Source: Oligoflexia bacterium
GTDB lineage: Bacteria > Bdellovibrionota > UBA1018
Length of the DNA stretch: 64,000 nt
Assembly (NCBI GenBank): GCA_014376785.1
Contig: JACMQW010000080.1
Location: 1 to 64,000, forward strand
Direction: 5' to 3'
Under the pieces are notes generated by a model. The model did no database searches. It saw only the letters and a list, made by a program, of their open reading frames with translations, and was not told where the DNA came from. Within the stretch, counting starts at the first letter, position 1; every line of letters starts with the position of its first letter. Of this stretch, positions 47,354 through 55,734 are shown piece by piece. A program made the translations under genes and the position numbers.

Positions 47354-48745
47354 ATGGGTTCTTTCGTTGTTTCTAAATTTGGCGGCACCAGTATGGGAAG
47401 CGCTTCCGCGATGGCGGCTTCCGCGGAAATCGTTTCGGCTGATCCTCGGGTTCGGTTTGTCTTAGTGAGTGCTACGAGCGGGACCACCCATCAACTTCTA
47501 AAAATCCATGAACTGCGGCGCGGTGGGAGCGTTTCCGAATGCCAGCAGTTCGCCGAAGAGATCGAGGAAAAGCACCGGGAGATCGCTGTCGAACTTGGCT
47601 GTAGTGAAAAAGCGATGGAGACACTCAAAGCGTTTCTTCTAGAGCTGAAGGCGCCGCTCATTTGTTCCGACTCTAACCAGTCTCTGGATCACTTGCTCTC
47701 AGTGGGTGAGCGGATGTCATCGCTTCTTTTCACCGAAGCGCTCCGAAAAAAGTCGGGCTCGAAAATCACCTGGATAGACGCTCGGAAATTTTTGATCACG
47801 GACGACCGGTTCGGAAAGGCGGAGCCCGATATCACGCTCACTCGTGCGAACTGTGACCCGCTTCGTGATCGCTTGGATTTAGTCAGGGATGCGGCCCCGG
47901 AAGTTTTCGTCAGCCAAGGATTTATCGGAGCCAGCTCCCAGGGAGCCACGACCACCTTAGGGCGCGGGGGGAGCGATTACAGCGCAGCCCTTTTCGCCGA
48001 GGCTCTCTCTGCAGACGGCGTCGAAATTTGGACCGATGTTCCGGGCATACTCACGATGGATCCTCGAGTGGTATTGAATGCTCGGATCATCGATGAAATG
48101 AGTTTTGCGGAAGCGGCCGAAATGGCGAACTTTGGTGCGAAAGTCCTTCATCCGGCCACCTTGGCTCCCGTGATGCGCGCAAATATCCCCGTGTGGGTGA
48201 AGTCGACTTTCAGGCCCGACCTTCCGGGAACTCGCATTTCTCCACAGGTCGAATCCGGCGCCCCGCTGATTCGGGCGATTGCCGTGCGCAAGCGGCAAAC
48301 CCTCATCACGGTGAGTAGCCTTCGAATGTTGAACGCTCACGGATTTCTGGCAAAAATTTTCGAAGTTCTGGCGAGGTATCATTTGAGCGTGGATCTGGTC
48401 ACCACCTCCGAGGTAAGCGTCGCACTCACCATCGACGAAGATGCGATGGGATCAGCTGGAAAATCTGTCAAGGAAAGTACGGAGATGTTAGCCGAGCTTC
48501 GAAGCTTTGCCGAAGTTCGACTCGAAGAGGACTTGTCCCTGATCGCCGTCATCGGAAACGGACTGAATTCGGCGCCCGGAGTAGCGGCCGAAATTTTTCA
48601 CGCCATTCGAAGTCAGAACGTTCGGCTCATTTGTCATGGCGCCAGCGAGCATAACATCTGCTTTCTGGTTGCGTCGGAAGACGCGCTCACCATTGCGCGC
48701 CAGTTGCACGAGGTCTGCATCGAAAAGCCAAGGGTGGACGGATGA
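47354..48745 (+). CDS. lysC: aspartate kinase
   Basis: VVSKFGGTSMGSA, TTLGRGGSDYSAALFAEAL, EIWTDVPGILTMDPR; two ACT-like regions. Confidence 0.93.
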   Translation: MGSFVVSKFGGTSMGSASAMAASAEIVSADPRVRFVLVSATSGTTHQLLKIHELRRGGSVSECQQFAEEIEEKHREIAVELGCSEKAMETLKAFLLELKAPLICSDSNQSLDHLLSVGERMSSLLFTEALRKKSGSKITWIDARKFLITDDRFGKAEPDITLTRANCDPLRDRLDLVRDAAPEVFVSQGFIGASSQGATTTLGRGGSDYSAALFAEALSADGVEIWTDVPGILTMDPRVVLNARIIDEMSFAEAAEMANFGAKVLHPATLAPVMRANIPVWVKSTFRPDLPGTRISPQVESGAPLIRAIAVRKRQTLITVSSLRMLNAHGFLAKIFEVLARYHLSVDLVTTSEVSVALTIDEDAMGSAGKSVKESTEMLAELRSFAEVRLEEDLSLIAVIGNGLNSAPGVAAEIFHAIRSQNVRLICHGASEHNICFLVASEDALTIARQLHEVCIEKPRVDG

Positions 48746-49335
48746 TGGCGGATAATCTGGGATTGCCCACACTCTTCGCGCTCAAAGGCGCGTGGCAAGT
48801 ATTGACCCTCTTTTTAATTCCGATTGGGGGGGGCATTCCTGCGGGAGTGCTCCTCGCCCAATCGAAAGGGATCGCTTGGCTTCCCACGACGTTTCTCTAC
48901 CTCGTATCCGATGTGATCCTCGCCTGCATTTTTGAGCCGCTCATCCTCCTCGCCGCTGCCGGCTCGAAACGCTCTCCGTTGCTTGCGAAGATGAAAGAAG
49001 CGTTTCGGAAGTCGATCGAAAAAACGACCGAACTTTATGGGAGCAAGCTTGGACCTCTTGCCCTGATTGGCATCTCATTTGGAGTCGACCCTATGACGGG
49101 GCGGGCGGTGGCGATCGCCGCCGGACACGGTTTCGTGACTGGATGGATGTTCGCGATTGCGGGAGACATGCTTTATTTCGGAATCTTGATGGTTTCGACT
49201 CTCTGGCTTCACGAAGTTTTGGGCGACGGAACCGTGACGACGCTGATCATTCTCGCGCTCATGATGGGGGTTCCGGCGGTCATCAAGCGGGTGCGCGGAA
49301 AGCCTAACGCCCCGCTGCCGAAGGAATCGATTTAG
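48742..49335 (+). CDS. hypothetical integral membrane protein
   Basis: Multiple TM segments; ATGA overlap with aspartate kinase stop. Confidence 0.65.
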   Translation: MMADNLGLPTLFALKGAWQVLTLFLIPIGGGIPAGVLLAQSKGIAWLPTTFLYLVSDVILACIFEPLILLAAAGSKRSPLLAKMKEAFRKSIEKTTELYGSKLGPLALIGISFGVDPMTGRAVAIAAGHGFVTGWMFAIAGDMLYFGILMVSTLWLHEVLGDGTVTTLIILALMMGVPAVIKRVRGKPNAPLPKESI

Positions 49336-50155: not shown

Positions 50156-51352
50156 ATGAAAAAACTTTCCATCCCTCGTCTGCTGAGTCCGATCCTGATT
50201 GAAGGTGCAGAAATTTTCAGTCCCGCCCCTTTGGGAGTGCAGTCCGTGCTCTTGGTGAATGGGAAGGTGATGGCGATTCGAGAAAAGATCGAGCGTGATT
50301 TCGTACTGTTGATCGCGGAAGGGATGGAAGTTGAACCCTGTTTCATCGATGCCCGCGGCCATCGATTGATTCCGGGAGTGGTGGATGCGCATGAGCACCT
50401 CACGGGAGGAAGTGGAGAGGATGGTTTCGCGACCCAAACTCCGGCGATTACCTTGGAAGAACTCATTCGGGGAGGAATCACCACCGTAGTCGGTTGCATC
50501 GGGGTGGACACTTACACCCAAAACCTTCCCCATTTACTCGGCCGAGTAAAAGCCCTTCGCGAGGAGGGGATTTCGGCCTGGATGTACACTGGTGGGTACG
50601 ATGTCCCTCCTCAGACTCTGACCGGCGATGTGCGGACGGATCTTATTTTAGTGAGTGAAGTGATTGGAGCAGGGGAGACGGCTATTGCCGATCGGCGTTC
50701 CACCCAACCTTCCACAGGTGAGCTTGCGCGAATCGTGGCGGCGGCTCGTACGGGCGGATTGCTCACTCAGAAAGCCGGCATCACTCACTTTCACGTGGGA
50801 GACGAACCCCGGGGAATTTCCCAACTGAATGAACTCTTAGACCACTTCGATGTCTGTGCAGACTGCCTCTATCCGACTCATGTGGAGAGAAAACCTGCAC
50901 TCTTGAAAGAATCTGCGAAGATCACCCACCGAGGAGTGGTGGTGGATATGGACGTCTGCGAGCAAGACCTGGAAGGAGATCTTTCGAAGTTCGTGGAAGA
51001 AGATGGACTCCTTACTCATCTCACTTTTTCGTCGGACGCCTCGATCATTTCTCCGCGCACTCTCTATGACCAAGTTCGGGGCTGCATTCTCAATCAGAGC
51101 TTGAAGAAAAAAACGCATTCCATAGAGACCCTGCTGTCACTTATTACGCTTAATCCCGCGCGTGTCTTAAAGATGCCGACAAAAGGTTGGATCGCAGTCG
51201 GGGCGGATGCGGATGTGCTCGTCGTGGATTCAAAGTTCGAAATTCGAGATGTGATTGCCTCCGGAAGGTTAGTTATGGCGGGGGGCGTAGTGAAGGTAAC
51301 CCCTCGATATGATAGGTGGAGTAACCGTTTTGGGTCGAAAATCGAGCGGTGA
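50156..51352 (+). CDS. iadA: beta-aspartyl (isoaspartyl) dipeptidase
   Basis: VVDAHEHLTGGSGEDGFATQTPAITLEELIRGGITTVVGCIGVD, GETAIADRRSTQP, FSSDAS. Confidence 0.88.
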   Translation: MKKLSIPRLLSPILIEGAEIFSPAPLGVQSVLLVNGKVMAIREKIERDFVLLIAEGMEVEPCFIDARGHRLIPGVVDAHEHLTGGSGEDGFATQTPAITLEELIRGGITTVVGCIGVDTYTQNLPHLLGRVKALREEGISAWMYTGGYDVPPQTLTGDVRTDLILVSEVIGAGETAIADRRSTQPSTGELARIVAAARTGGLLTQKAGITHFHVGDEPRGISQLNELLDHFDVCADCLYPTHVERKPALLKESAKITHRGVVVDMDVCEQDLEGDLSKFVEEDGLLTHLTFSSDASIISPRTLYDQVRGCILNQSLKKKTHSIETLLSLITLNPARVLKMPTKGWIAVGADADVLVVDSKFEIRDVIASGRLVMAGGVVKVTPRYDRWSNRFGSKIER

Positions 51353-51391
51353 GCCCTAGCGTAAATCCTAAATCTCCCCTAAGCTCATAAG

Positions 51392-52150
51392 ATGAATCTT
51401 AGGACGAGATTGATCGTTTTCGGCGGCGGGGTTCTTCCAAAGACGGGAATGCAGACATTCTTCGAATGGACAGGCCGGCCTGCTGAATCGACCGTGCTGG
51501 TGATCGCTTGGGCCTCCGAAGAAGTTCGCAACACGGTAGCCTATTATCTCGAACTCTTTACGGGCGCAGGATTCAAGGTCGAAGTTTCTGCTTCAGCGCC
51601 GATCACTTACTCCGAGCGCATCGATTTTATCGAGCAACTTTCCCGAGCGGACGGTGTGTTTTTTACCGGAGGCGACCAGAATCGCACGGCGGCCGGATTT
51701 GATTTCAAAGATGTGAAGTTAGCTCTCCAAACCGCTTACACAAATGGGACGCCATTTGCGGGAACGAGCGCGGGGACTGCGATCATGTCGATGCTCATGT
51801 TCACCGGCAAAGACGACCCAGAAAAACTAGACGAAGAAAATTTACACCTTCGCGAAGGTCTGGGGTTTGTCCCTGGAGTGATTTTCGATCAACATTTTAT
51901 CAAGCGCATGCGCCAGAACCGACTTTTTTCAGCGATCCTTCATCATCCGAATTTGATCGGTTTGGGGATTGATGAGGGGACAGGCCTCGAAATATTGGAT
52001 GGAAAATATTGTAAGGTCGTTGGTCCCGAAAAAGTCATGCGGGTTGCGAAACAAGGGTCTAAGCGTTCTTTGGACGTAGAGATTTACCACGAGGGAGAAT
52101 CTTTCGAACTTCTGCCCGCAAAATCTTCTTCAACGCAGCAGGCTTCTTAA
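51392..52150 (+). CDS. cyanophycinase-like S51 peptidase
   Basis: FFTGGDQNRTA, GTSAGTAIMS nucleophile motif, GLGFVPGVIFDQHFIKRMRQNRL, GLGIDEGTGLEI. Confidence 0.87.
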   Translation: MNLRTRLIVFGGGVLPKTGMQTFFEWTGRPAESTVLVIAWASEEVRNTVAYYLELFTGAGFKVEVSASAPITYSERIDFIEQLSRADGVFFTGGDQNRTAAGFDFKDVKLALQTAYTNGTPFAGTSAGTAIMSMLMFTGKDDPEKLDEENLHLREGLGFVPGVIFDQHFIKRMRQNRLFSAILHHPNLIGLGIDEGTGLEILDGKYCKVVGPEKVMRVAKQGSKRSLDVEIYHEGESFELLPAKSSSTQQAS

Positions 52151-53057
52151 TTGCTTCTGGGATGATTTTCGCCTCGCGGAGGGACGTCCTACCTGAGGTA
52201 GGAATTCGCGTGAGTAAATTGAAGTGGTCACCGGCGCTGAGGAGATGGTTCTTTAAATTAAATAATGAGAGCGCACTGTTGTCGTCGCTATCGGAGATGT
52301 TCGAGTCATCGGACTCTCTCGCATCGGCGATGTAAACGCATCCCGAGCCGACGACTCGGAATGTTTCTCTTTTTTCGACGATGATCGCGGTGTTTTCGTC
52401 GATGCCGATTCCGAGGTACTTCGGATTATGCGCGAGCGCCCCGAGGAGTCTACCCCAGCGTCCGCGCTCCATGAAATGTTGGTCGATGATCACATCGTCT
52501 AAAAATCCGAGTCCGGGTGCCATGCGAAGCCCTCCGCCCACGCGGAAAGATCCTTCATTTCCAGCAATCAGCATGGTGTTGCTCATGACGGAGGCTCCGG
52601 CGGACGTGCCTGCGACAATTCCGCCTTCATGAAAAATTTTTCGAATTTTCATCTCCGCTAGCGTGCCGCCTAAATCGCTGGTGATCCGAAGCTGGTCTCC
52701 CCCAGTAAAGAAAACGGCGCCCGCACCCTCCAGCGCACCGAGCGATGCTTCTGAATTCGCTTCATGGCGTCCGCGAAAATTCAGATGAGAAATATTTTTA
52801 AGACCGAGGCGCGTGAAAGCATGAAAGTATTCCTGCCAGAGTTCTTCTCCGACCCGACTCGCGATCGTGGTCACACAAAGCTTTCGGTCTCCAATCAGAC
52901 GCGCGAGTTCTTCGAGAACCCGCATGCTCCCTTTTCTGTCCTCATGTCCACCAATAATCATGAGCGTTCCAATTTCAAATTGGGGCGTCTTCTGGGTTCG
53001 GTAGGGGGTCGGTTTTTCTCTACTCACCCGAACTTTAGGTGGTTTCATGCTTGGCAT
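52059..53057 (-). CDS. cphB: cyanophycinase (S51 peptidase)
   Basis: VFFTGGDQLRITS, GTSAGASVMSNTM, GLGFLDDVIIDQHFMERGRWGRLLGALAHNPKYLGIGIDENTAI. Confidence 0.9.
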   Translation of the reverse strand: MPSMKPPKVRVSREKPTPYRTQKTPQFEIGTLMIIGGHEDRKGSMRVLEELARLIGDRKLCVTTIASRVGEELWQEYFHAFTRLGLKNISHLNFRGRHEANSEASLGALEGAGAVFFTGGDQLRITSDLGGTLAEMKIRKIFHEGGIVAGTSAGASVMSNTMLIAGNEGSFRVGGGLRMAPGLGFLDDVIIDQHFMERGRWGRLLGALAHNPKYLGIGIDENTAIIVEKRETFRVVGSGCVYIADARESDDSNISDSDDNSALSLFNLKNHLLSAGDHFNLLTRIPTSGRTSLREAKIIPEAIKKPAALKKILRAEVRKILPRGKSLRPKNA

Positions 53058-55734
53058 CCTTCGCGGACACTTCGACTGGAATCGGTCGACCGACGAGTCC
53101 GGATAATTCTGACAGGTCTTTGATCGGCTTCGCGCCTACTTTTTCCAAAGTGCGCATCACGCGCGCGAGGTTATCATAGAAAAAGAAAATCACTTCCCCG
53201 GGCACCATTTCGCTCACCGCAAATTCAAGCGCGTCGGGTTCGTCTAACATCTGATACGTCTCAATTTCAGGCTTTTTTGCTTTCGCCGCTGCACAGAGCA
53301 TGTCGGCCGTTTCCCTAGCCGGCCGGCCCCGAAGGTCGACGTCTTCACGGATAATAATCCGGTCAAAGAATTCAGCAGCCGCATGGCCCGACATTTTGAT
53401 GATTTCATCCGTCCGGTCTCCGGGAGCGGAGATGATTCCGGTTAAACGAGTGGTGTTCCAATGTTTTGCCATATCACAGACCGAGCGTAGAGCGTCCGCA
53501 TTATGACCGAAGTCGACGACGACGTATCCTTCCTTTACGCGAAAGAAATTAGCCCGACCCGCATTATCTAAAATGGGATTGAATGAACGAAGGCTGCGAA
53601 TCACCTCGTTCTTGCTCATTCCCATTTCGCGCATAGCGGCCGCAGCCGCGAGAGCATTAGACACTTGGTACTTCGCTGTGCCTCCGATGGTGAAGGGTAG
53701 AGTTCGGGCTTCACAGATTTCGGTGGTGACGCCATTTTTTACTTCAAAAATCGAAGTCCCGTCATAGTAGAAACCGGTTCCGTTTTCGCTGAAGTGGTTT
53801 TGAAGCCGCGGATTCTCTTTGGACAGCGAGAAAAAGACTACGTTTTTATTTTCAGCGCGAACGCTCGCTTTTTCTGTCAAACTCGCGACATGGCTGTCGT
53901 CCGCATTTAAGATGAGAGTGCCCCCATCGCGGACGCTTTCCGCAACGAGCGATTTGATTCGTAAGATATCGTCCACGGATTCGATTCCATCTTGCCCGAT
54001 GTGATCGGGTTGGACGTTCGTGATGACGGCCAAATCCGAAAAATCGAACCCAAGGCCGCGTTTCACAATTCCGCCTCGTGCGGTTTCGAGAACAGCCACA
54101 TCGACCCAGGGGTCTTCCAGAATCATTTTTGCCGAGACCGGACCAGTCGTATCCCCGGATGAAATTTTGGTCTTACCCAGGTAAATTCCCGCAGAAGTGG
54201 TCATACCGACTTTCACAGAATTTTCGTGAAGTCCGTGAGCAATTAAACGAGTGACGGTCGTTTTTCCATTCGTGCCGGTAATCGTAATGATCGGAATGCG
54301 TCCCGTTTCGCCATTCGGGAAGAGGTGATCGATGATCGCAGATCCGACATCCCGAGATTTTCCGACGGTCGGATAATGGTGCATCCGAATCCCAGGTGCG
54401 GCGTTCACTTCGATGACACCACCGCGCTGACCAGCCAGAGGGCGTGCGATGTCTTCGATAATCAAATCGATCCCGCAAACATCGAGTGCGACGACTCTAG
54501 CCGCCCTCTCGCACATGACTTGAATGTCAGCGTGAACGAGGTCGGTGACATCGACCGCGGATCCGCCTTTAGAGAGGTTCGCTGTGTTCCGGAGCTGGAT
54601 GCGTTCACCGGCCATCGGAACGGAGTCGAGTCTAATTTGGGCGCGCTCTAAATACTGCGCGGCCGCTCGGTCGATCGTGATCTTCGTCATCGGTTTCTCA
54701 TGGCCCTCACCACGAAGGGGATTCCGATTTTCTTGATCGATCAGATTTTGGATCGATTGTTTTCCATCACCGATGACGTGCGCGGGTATTCGCTCGGCGG
54801 CGGCGACCAGTTTTCCCCCGATGACTAAAAGGCGGAAGTCTTTTCCAGTGTAAAACTGCTCGACCAGTACTTTTCTCGAAAATTCGCGAGCGACATCGAA
54901 TGCCTCGGTGACCGCTTCTTCGCTTTTCAAATTCAGACAAACGCCGTTACCATGATTTCCGTCGAGCGGTTTCACAGTAACAGGGCCGCCGAGGTCGTTG
55001 AAAACTTCGAGCGCGCCTGCGAGGGTTGCGACACTTTCACCGCGCGGAACCGGTACGCCCATGCGACCGAGCAGTGCCTTCGTGAGGGATTTATCCTGCG
55101 CGATCGCGACCCCGATATGGGAAGTCAGGCCGGTGATGGTGGCCTGGAGGAGTTTTCGTTTTGAACCGTAACCGAATTCGATCAAGCTTCGATCATTCAT
55201 TCGGCGCCAAGGAATTCCGCGTCTCACCGCCGCATCGATGACCGCTTGGGTGCTCGGACCGAATTTTTCAGCTTCGGCGATTTGCCTCGCCTCGTGAATG
55301 ATCTCGTCGATGTTCACCTGTTTACCGTCTGCACAAGCGTCAATAACTTCGACAGCCTTTGTGAGGAGGTGCTTCATCCCCGGTTCAGATTGGTAGCGGA
55401 CGATCACGTGGTAAACGCCGTGCGAGCCGCCGTAAATCGATTTTCCGAAACCCACTTTAATTCCGGATGGGTGACTGAGCTCCAAAGCGACGTGTTCGAT
55501 CATGTGGGCGAAGTAGGTCCCACGGTTCAATCGCTCGATAAAGCCCCCTGGCCGGCCAGGCGAACAGCGATGCTCTTTCAAGCCCGGCAGAAGGGCCACC
55601 AGCCGGTCGACGAAACCCGGGAGAGACTTGCTAGAAGTCTCCGCTCTCTCTTGGAGGTCGATCGTCATCATGAGGACGGGGTGGTGGTGGTACGTATTTG
55701 GGCCGGAGAGGGTCCGGATATTCTTAATTTTCAT
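53035..55734 (-). CDS. cphA: cyanophycin synthetase
   Basis: RGTYFAHMIEHVALELS, ATP-grasp VTVKPLDGNHGNGVCLNL, Mur-ligase ITITGTNGKTTVTRLIAHGL, 899 aa. Confidence 0.95.
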   Translation of the reverse strand: MKIKNIRTLSGPNTYHHHPVLMMTIDLQERAETSSKSLPGFVDRLVALLPGLKEHRCSPGRPGGFIERLNRGTYFAHMIEHVALELSHPSGIKVGFGKSIYGGSHGVYHVIVRYQSEPGMKHLLTKAVEVIDACADGKQVNIDEIIHEARQIAEAEKFGPSTQAVIDAAVRRGIPWRRMNDRSLIEFGYGSKRKLLQATITGLTSHIGVAIAQDKSLTKALLGRMGVPVPRGESVATLAGALEVFNDLGGPVTVKPLDGNHGNGVCLNLKSEEAVTEAFDVAREFSRKVLVEQFYTGKDFRLLVIGGKLVAAAERIPAHVIGDGKQSIQNLIDQENRNPLRGEGHEKPMTKITIDRAAAQYLERAQIRLDSVPMAGERIQLRNTANLSKGGSAVDVTDLVHADIQVMCERAARVVALDVCGIDLIIEDIARPLAGQRGGVIEVNAAPGIRMHHYPTVGKSRDVGSAIIDHLFPNGETGRIPIITITGTNGKTTVTRLIAHGLHENSVKVGMTTSAGIYLGKTKISSGDTTGPVSAKMILEDPWVDVAVLETARGGIVKRGLGFDFSDLAVITNVQPDHIGQDGIESVDDILRIKSLVAESVRDGGTLILNADDSHVASLTEKASVRAENKNVVFFSLSKENPRLQNHFSENGTGFYYDGTSIFEVKNGVTTEICEARTLPFTIGGTAKYQVSNALAAAAAMREMGMSKNEVIRSLRSFNPILDNAGRANFFRVKEGYVVVDFGHNADALRSVCDMAKHWNTTRLTGIISAPGDRTDEIIKMSGHAAAEFFDRIIIREDVDLRGRPARETADMLCAAAKAKKPEIETYQMLDEPDALEFAVSEMVPGEVIFFFYDNLARVMRTLEKVGAKPIKDLSELSGLVGRPIPVEVSAKDAKHETT

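Follow-up and report, generated by a model that had tools for sequence, protein, structure and literature searches.

The region at positions 50,156-55,734 of the window (the whole 64,000-nucleotide stretch of DNA analysed here, from an Oligoflexia bacterium) probably constitutes a complete island for the storage and mobilisation of cyanophycin, a nitrogen-storage polymer, with two opposed transcription units and a second cytosolic cyanophycinase. The four genes lie where the preliminary description placed them, with intact open reading frames and intact catalytic residues in all four. On the plus strand, iadA (50156..51352; 398 aa), encoding an isoaspartyl dipeptidase of a short-loop lineage, lies 39 bp upstream of the gene for a second cyanophycinase-like serine peptidase (51392..52150; 252 aa), termed S51A here as the second S51 protein of the window. 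These converge on the minus-strand cphB (52059..53057; 332 aa), encoding a canonical intracellular cyanophycinase with short extensions at both termini, and cphA (53035..55734; 899 aa), encoding cyanophycin synthetase 1. The 3' ends of S51A and cphB share 92 bp in a tail-to-tail overlap (52059..52150), and the end of cphA overlaps the start of cphB by 23 bp on the minus strand (53035..53057), which likely marks a coupled operon.

The further claim that the locus encodes polymer synthesis, hydrolysis by two S51 enzymes and dipeptide cleavage is borne out by profile models, motifs and structure comparison, with the enzymatic activities themselves standing as predictions from sequence. CphA scores 1131 bits against TIGR02068 (cut-off 850), and its residues 1-861 align to 7lg5 (E 2.5e-212) across the full N-terminal, ATP-grasp and Mur-ligase domains. 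The loss of key ligase residues that the preliminary description had regarded as fatal to its reading is not seen: the ATP-grasp KPLDGNHGNG (255) and Mur-ligase GTNGKT (487) motifs are intact, as are the catalytic and binding residues of both S51 proteins. Additionally, the N-terminal domain retains at residue 57 the Cx19HxxEH motif (CSPGRPGGFIERLNRGTYFAHMIEH), which is kept in all 19 full-length CphA proteins of relatives in the same phylum. This motif, which occurs in most but not all CphA1 proteins, has been tied to primer-independent synthesis (PMC9262961), and the enzyme is accordingly worded here as a CphA1 predicted to need no primer. The 332-aa protein matches TIGR02069 with 258 bits (cut-off 126.6) and 7uqv with an E-value of 3e-61, keeps the catalytic and binding residues and falls within the CphB clade in both trees constructed; by these sequence criteria it is the standard cytosolic cyanophycinase CphB. 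The genome also contains argG, and arginine synthesis is therefore plausible.

The two S51 proteins do differ in length and sequence, as first described (252 versus 332 aa, with about 28% identity). However, the distinct substrates or division of labour that had been suggested on this basis do not follow, because both keep the same six binding residues. In CphB the critical residues Gln101, Asp172, Gln173, Arg178, Arg180 and Arg183 surround the catalytic Ser132, which acts with a catalytic His and Glu (PMC3235067); in the alignment Ser132, His174, the Glu and all six of these residues are kept in both window proteins. In S51A they map to the catalytic S126, H168 and E195 and to Q96, D166, Q167, R172, R174 and R177 at the binding site. 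S51A scores 135.8 bits against TIGR02069, narrowly above the cut-off of 126.6, and its AlphaFold model (pLDDT 94) finds 3en0, 7uqv and 7uqw as its nearest folds, ahead of PepE. Identification as PepE itself was rejected on the NF003642 score (28 bits against a cut-off of 156) and on the residues. These features suggest that S51A is likely to be active on cyanophycin.

The real difference between the two S51 proteins, judged from their sequences, is one of ancestry. In the phylogeny that had been proposed as a check, S51A does not group with the CphB proteins; it stands apart from every one of them and joins S51 proteins that stand alone in genomes of the phylum (support 100/100 and 100/99 in the two trees), and is hence classed as cyanophycinase-like rather than as a CphB. 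Both trees also rule out a recent duplication of cphB. The relatives of S51A occur as stand-alone genes away from cphA in about 20 genomes, and most of this clade carries a hydrophobic, signal-peptide-like N-terminus. By the same rough hydrophobicity check of N-termini, used in place of a dedicated predictor, S51A and its counterpart in G044, a genome of the same order, lack a signal peptide and start directly at the core. Annotated plasmid S51 matches beside cphA were also considered as instances of S51A and set aside, being CphB-type in the tree and mostly accompanied by IaaA, not IadA. The window's genome encodes a third S51 protein on another contig (L056:2259-3170; contig C96), of 303 aa, with a signal-peptide-like N-terminus and GGGQ instead of GGDQ, the other checked residues being kept; its product is a candidate exported cyanophycinase-like enzyme.

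This separate ancestry bears on the alternative that S51A is a peptidase of some other isoaspartyl or aspartyl substrate (for instance oligomers, beta-Asp-Lys products or damaged peptides), placed near iadA since IadA finishes its products. The strongly supported separation from all CphB (100/99-100), the solitary relatives in those genomes away from cphA and the weak match to the PepE model would all be in keeping with such a role. However, the retention of all six cyanophycin-binding residues, a PepE score so far below the cut-off and nearest folds that are cyanophycinases speak against it, and we regard it as possible but doubtful. On these sequence features, S51A most likely acts as a second cyanophycinase in the cytosol and supplies IadA with substrate.

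The IadA assignment relies on several lines of evidence. The protein reaches 302 bits against TIGR01975, below the equivalog cut-off of 331; it is nevertheless filed as an IadA-like enzyme since both fold and active site are those of IadA. Its PDB sequence matches reach E 5e-72, and the best Foldseek matches of its AlphaFold model (pLDDT 78, with low-confidence loops) are all IadA (E 6e-36). The alignments identify the metal ligands H79 and H81 (HxH), E174, H213, H242 and D294, and the substrate residues E88, Y148, R181 and R245. Some of the reference residues are those of EcIadA. The others come from LmIadA (PMC10206079), with E174 being a glutamate like its E159. The window IadA groups with the IadA proteins of the cphA operons of the phylum and shares with them two loops that are 8 and 16 residues shorter than those of 7cf6 and that by approximate position may be those discussed for active-site access in LmIadA (PMC10206079). 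A scan of the genome collection for IadA returned no matches. In a family-by-family search of the window's genome, the window iadA was the sole full-length IadA homologue and no IaaA was found, leaving its product as the one candidate for an isoaspartyl dipeptidase there. Caution is needed over the specificity of this enzyme, because the cluster-encoded LmIadA was found to be unspecific (PMC10206079). Elsewhere in the phylum, the HxH metal motif is lost in two IadA proteins of cphA operons (L099:6679-7737 and L104:7061-8146, in G271 and G273), where it reads QxL and QxH, and these proteins may be inactive or altered.

Counting the window's genome, 20 of 369 genomes in the phylum encode a CphA that scores above the cut-off. 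The clustering of these genes is not due to chance: each of the 19 other loci with a full-length cphA has cphB next to it, and in 12 a co-oriented iadA sits between the two. S51A was not found at any of these 19 within the sequence stretch examined, some of the contigs being short, and is present at only two of the 21 cph loci of the phylum, those of the window and of G044. These two genomes are also the only ones among 55 in the order with cphB, the other 53 being without it. The G044 locus, on a partial contig of 4,980 bp from a genome 72% complete, comprises a minus-strand cphA-iadA-cphB and a convergent plus-strand S51A that overlaps cphB by 81 bp. The two S51A proteins are 39% identical with all catalytic residues kept in both, and their joining as one clade has an AU p of 0.516; the conserved junction favours a single origin. 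Because this junction is common to both loci and iadA lies inside the G044 operon, the placement of the window iadA on the other strand, outside the operon, seems to have arisen by a later rearrangement. The G044 iadA (L032:3792-4662) is split across two reading frames separated by a gap, either through an assembly-error frameshift or as a broken gene. Two genomes of the same family as the window's, G021 (L107:8368-10179) and G005 (contig C24), encode, in place of a full-length CphA, CphA-like proteins in open frames of roughly 565-673 aa.

Two neighbouring genes, LysC (47354-48745) and a membrane ORF (48742-49335), were rejected as island members, as neither was found near cph in any relative. 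This pair, at 47354-49335, encodes an aspartokinase of the lysine-sensitive type and, downstream and overlapping by 4 bp, a probable membrane protein of 197 aa lacking any Pfam or NCBIfam match.

In functional terms, the minus-strand cphA-cphB unit would make the polymer through CphA1 and carry the standard cytosolic CphB along, and the plus-strand iadA-S51A unit, presumably co-transcribed, would add another cytosolic cyanophycinase, belonging to an S51 clade that is otherwise mostly exported; the released beta-Asp-Arg would then be cleaved by IadA to Asp and Arg. The gene layout, taken alone, raises the idea that the two units might be used at different times, one in synthesis and the other in mobilisation, though such alternation is speculative. 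The more specific proposal that S51A works with the short-loop IadA as a cytosolic pair dedicated to mobilisation, with an exported-lineage enzyme kept inside the cell and set against cphB for alternating cyanophycinase expression, appears unlikely. Against the favoured reading count the score of S51A near the cut-off and its identity of only about 28% to CphB, the fragmentary state of G044 and the lack of convincing promoters: a promoter and terminator scan of the locus gave results no better than shuffled sequences (2 promoters versus 3.7 expected).

Alternatively, iadA-S51A might be a module that scavenges cyanophycin, or fragments of it, from outside the cell or from prey, with internal storage left to cphA-cphB only. 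Signal peptides in most S51A relatives, and the known utilisation loci with a cyanophycinase and iadA but no cphA (PMC10206079), would be compatible with this. However, S51A itself has no signal peptide, the island has no evident transporter gene and the window IadA groups with those of cphA operons, making such a module quite improbable. The restriction of S51A to two cph loci and its long branch might hint at a paralogue that is redundant or in decay and hitch-hikes beside cphB, but this is very unlikely given an intact reading frame and full retention of the catalytic residues in two genomes so divergent in this protein.

The favoured reading, a storage-and-mobilisation island with a second cytosolic cyanophycinase, implies from gene content that scattered members of a phylum with known predators have a complete cyanophycin metabolism, and it offers one case in which the cluster has gained a second cyanophycinase-like enzyme of a separate lineage. 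If S51A is active, the secreted relatives in its clade become candidate extracellular cyanophycinases. The cphA1-cyanophycinase-iadA core is already known, with all three genes clustered in 37 of the 231 RefSeq genomes that possess them (PMC10206079), and the gain is hence incremental; what is new is the second S51 protein of separate lineage and its pairing with iadA. A search by title and abstract, with most subscription journals outside its reach, found no on-point paper on a second cyanophycinase within a cph cluster.

Clusters of the Leucothrix mucor type (Sharon and Schmeing 2023, PMC10206079) bring the same three enzyme families together within a few kb, whereas the window adds a second S51 protein of another clade and the 92-bp convergent overlap, and has iadA on the other strand, separate from the cphA/cphB unit. 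The cphA-iadA-cphB operons of the phylum (e.g., L092, L090, L105) have homologous CphA, CphB and IadA proteins (about 35-55% identical), the last of the same short-loop lineage, but lack S51A and hold iadA co-oriented between cphA and cphB. Finally, compared by features, the extracellular CphE of Pseudomonas alcaligenes (CphEal; PMC3235067) is an S51 serine peptidase that shares its Ser/His/Glu and its binding arginines with S51A; however, it has a Sec signal, a Thr in place of Gln173 and about 420 aa, whereas S51A has no signal, keeps the Gln and spans 252 aa.
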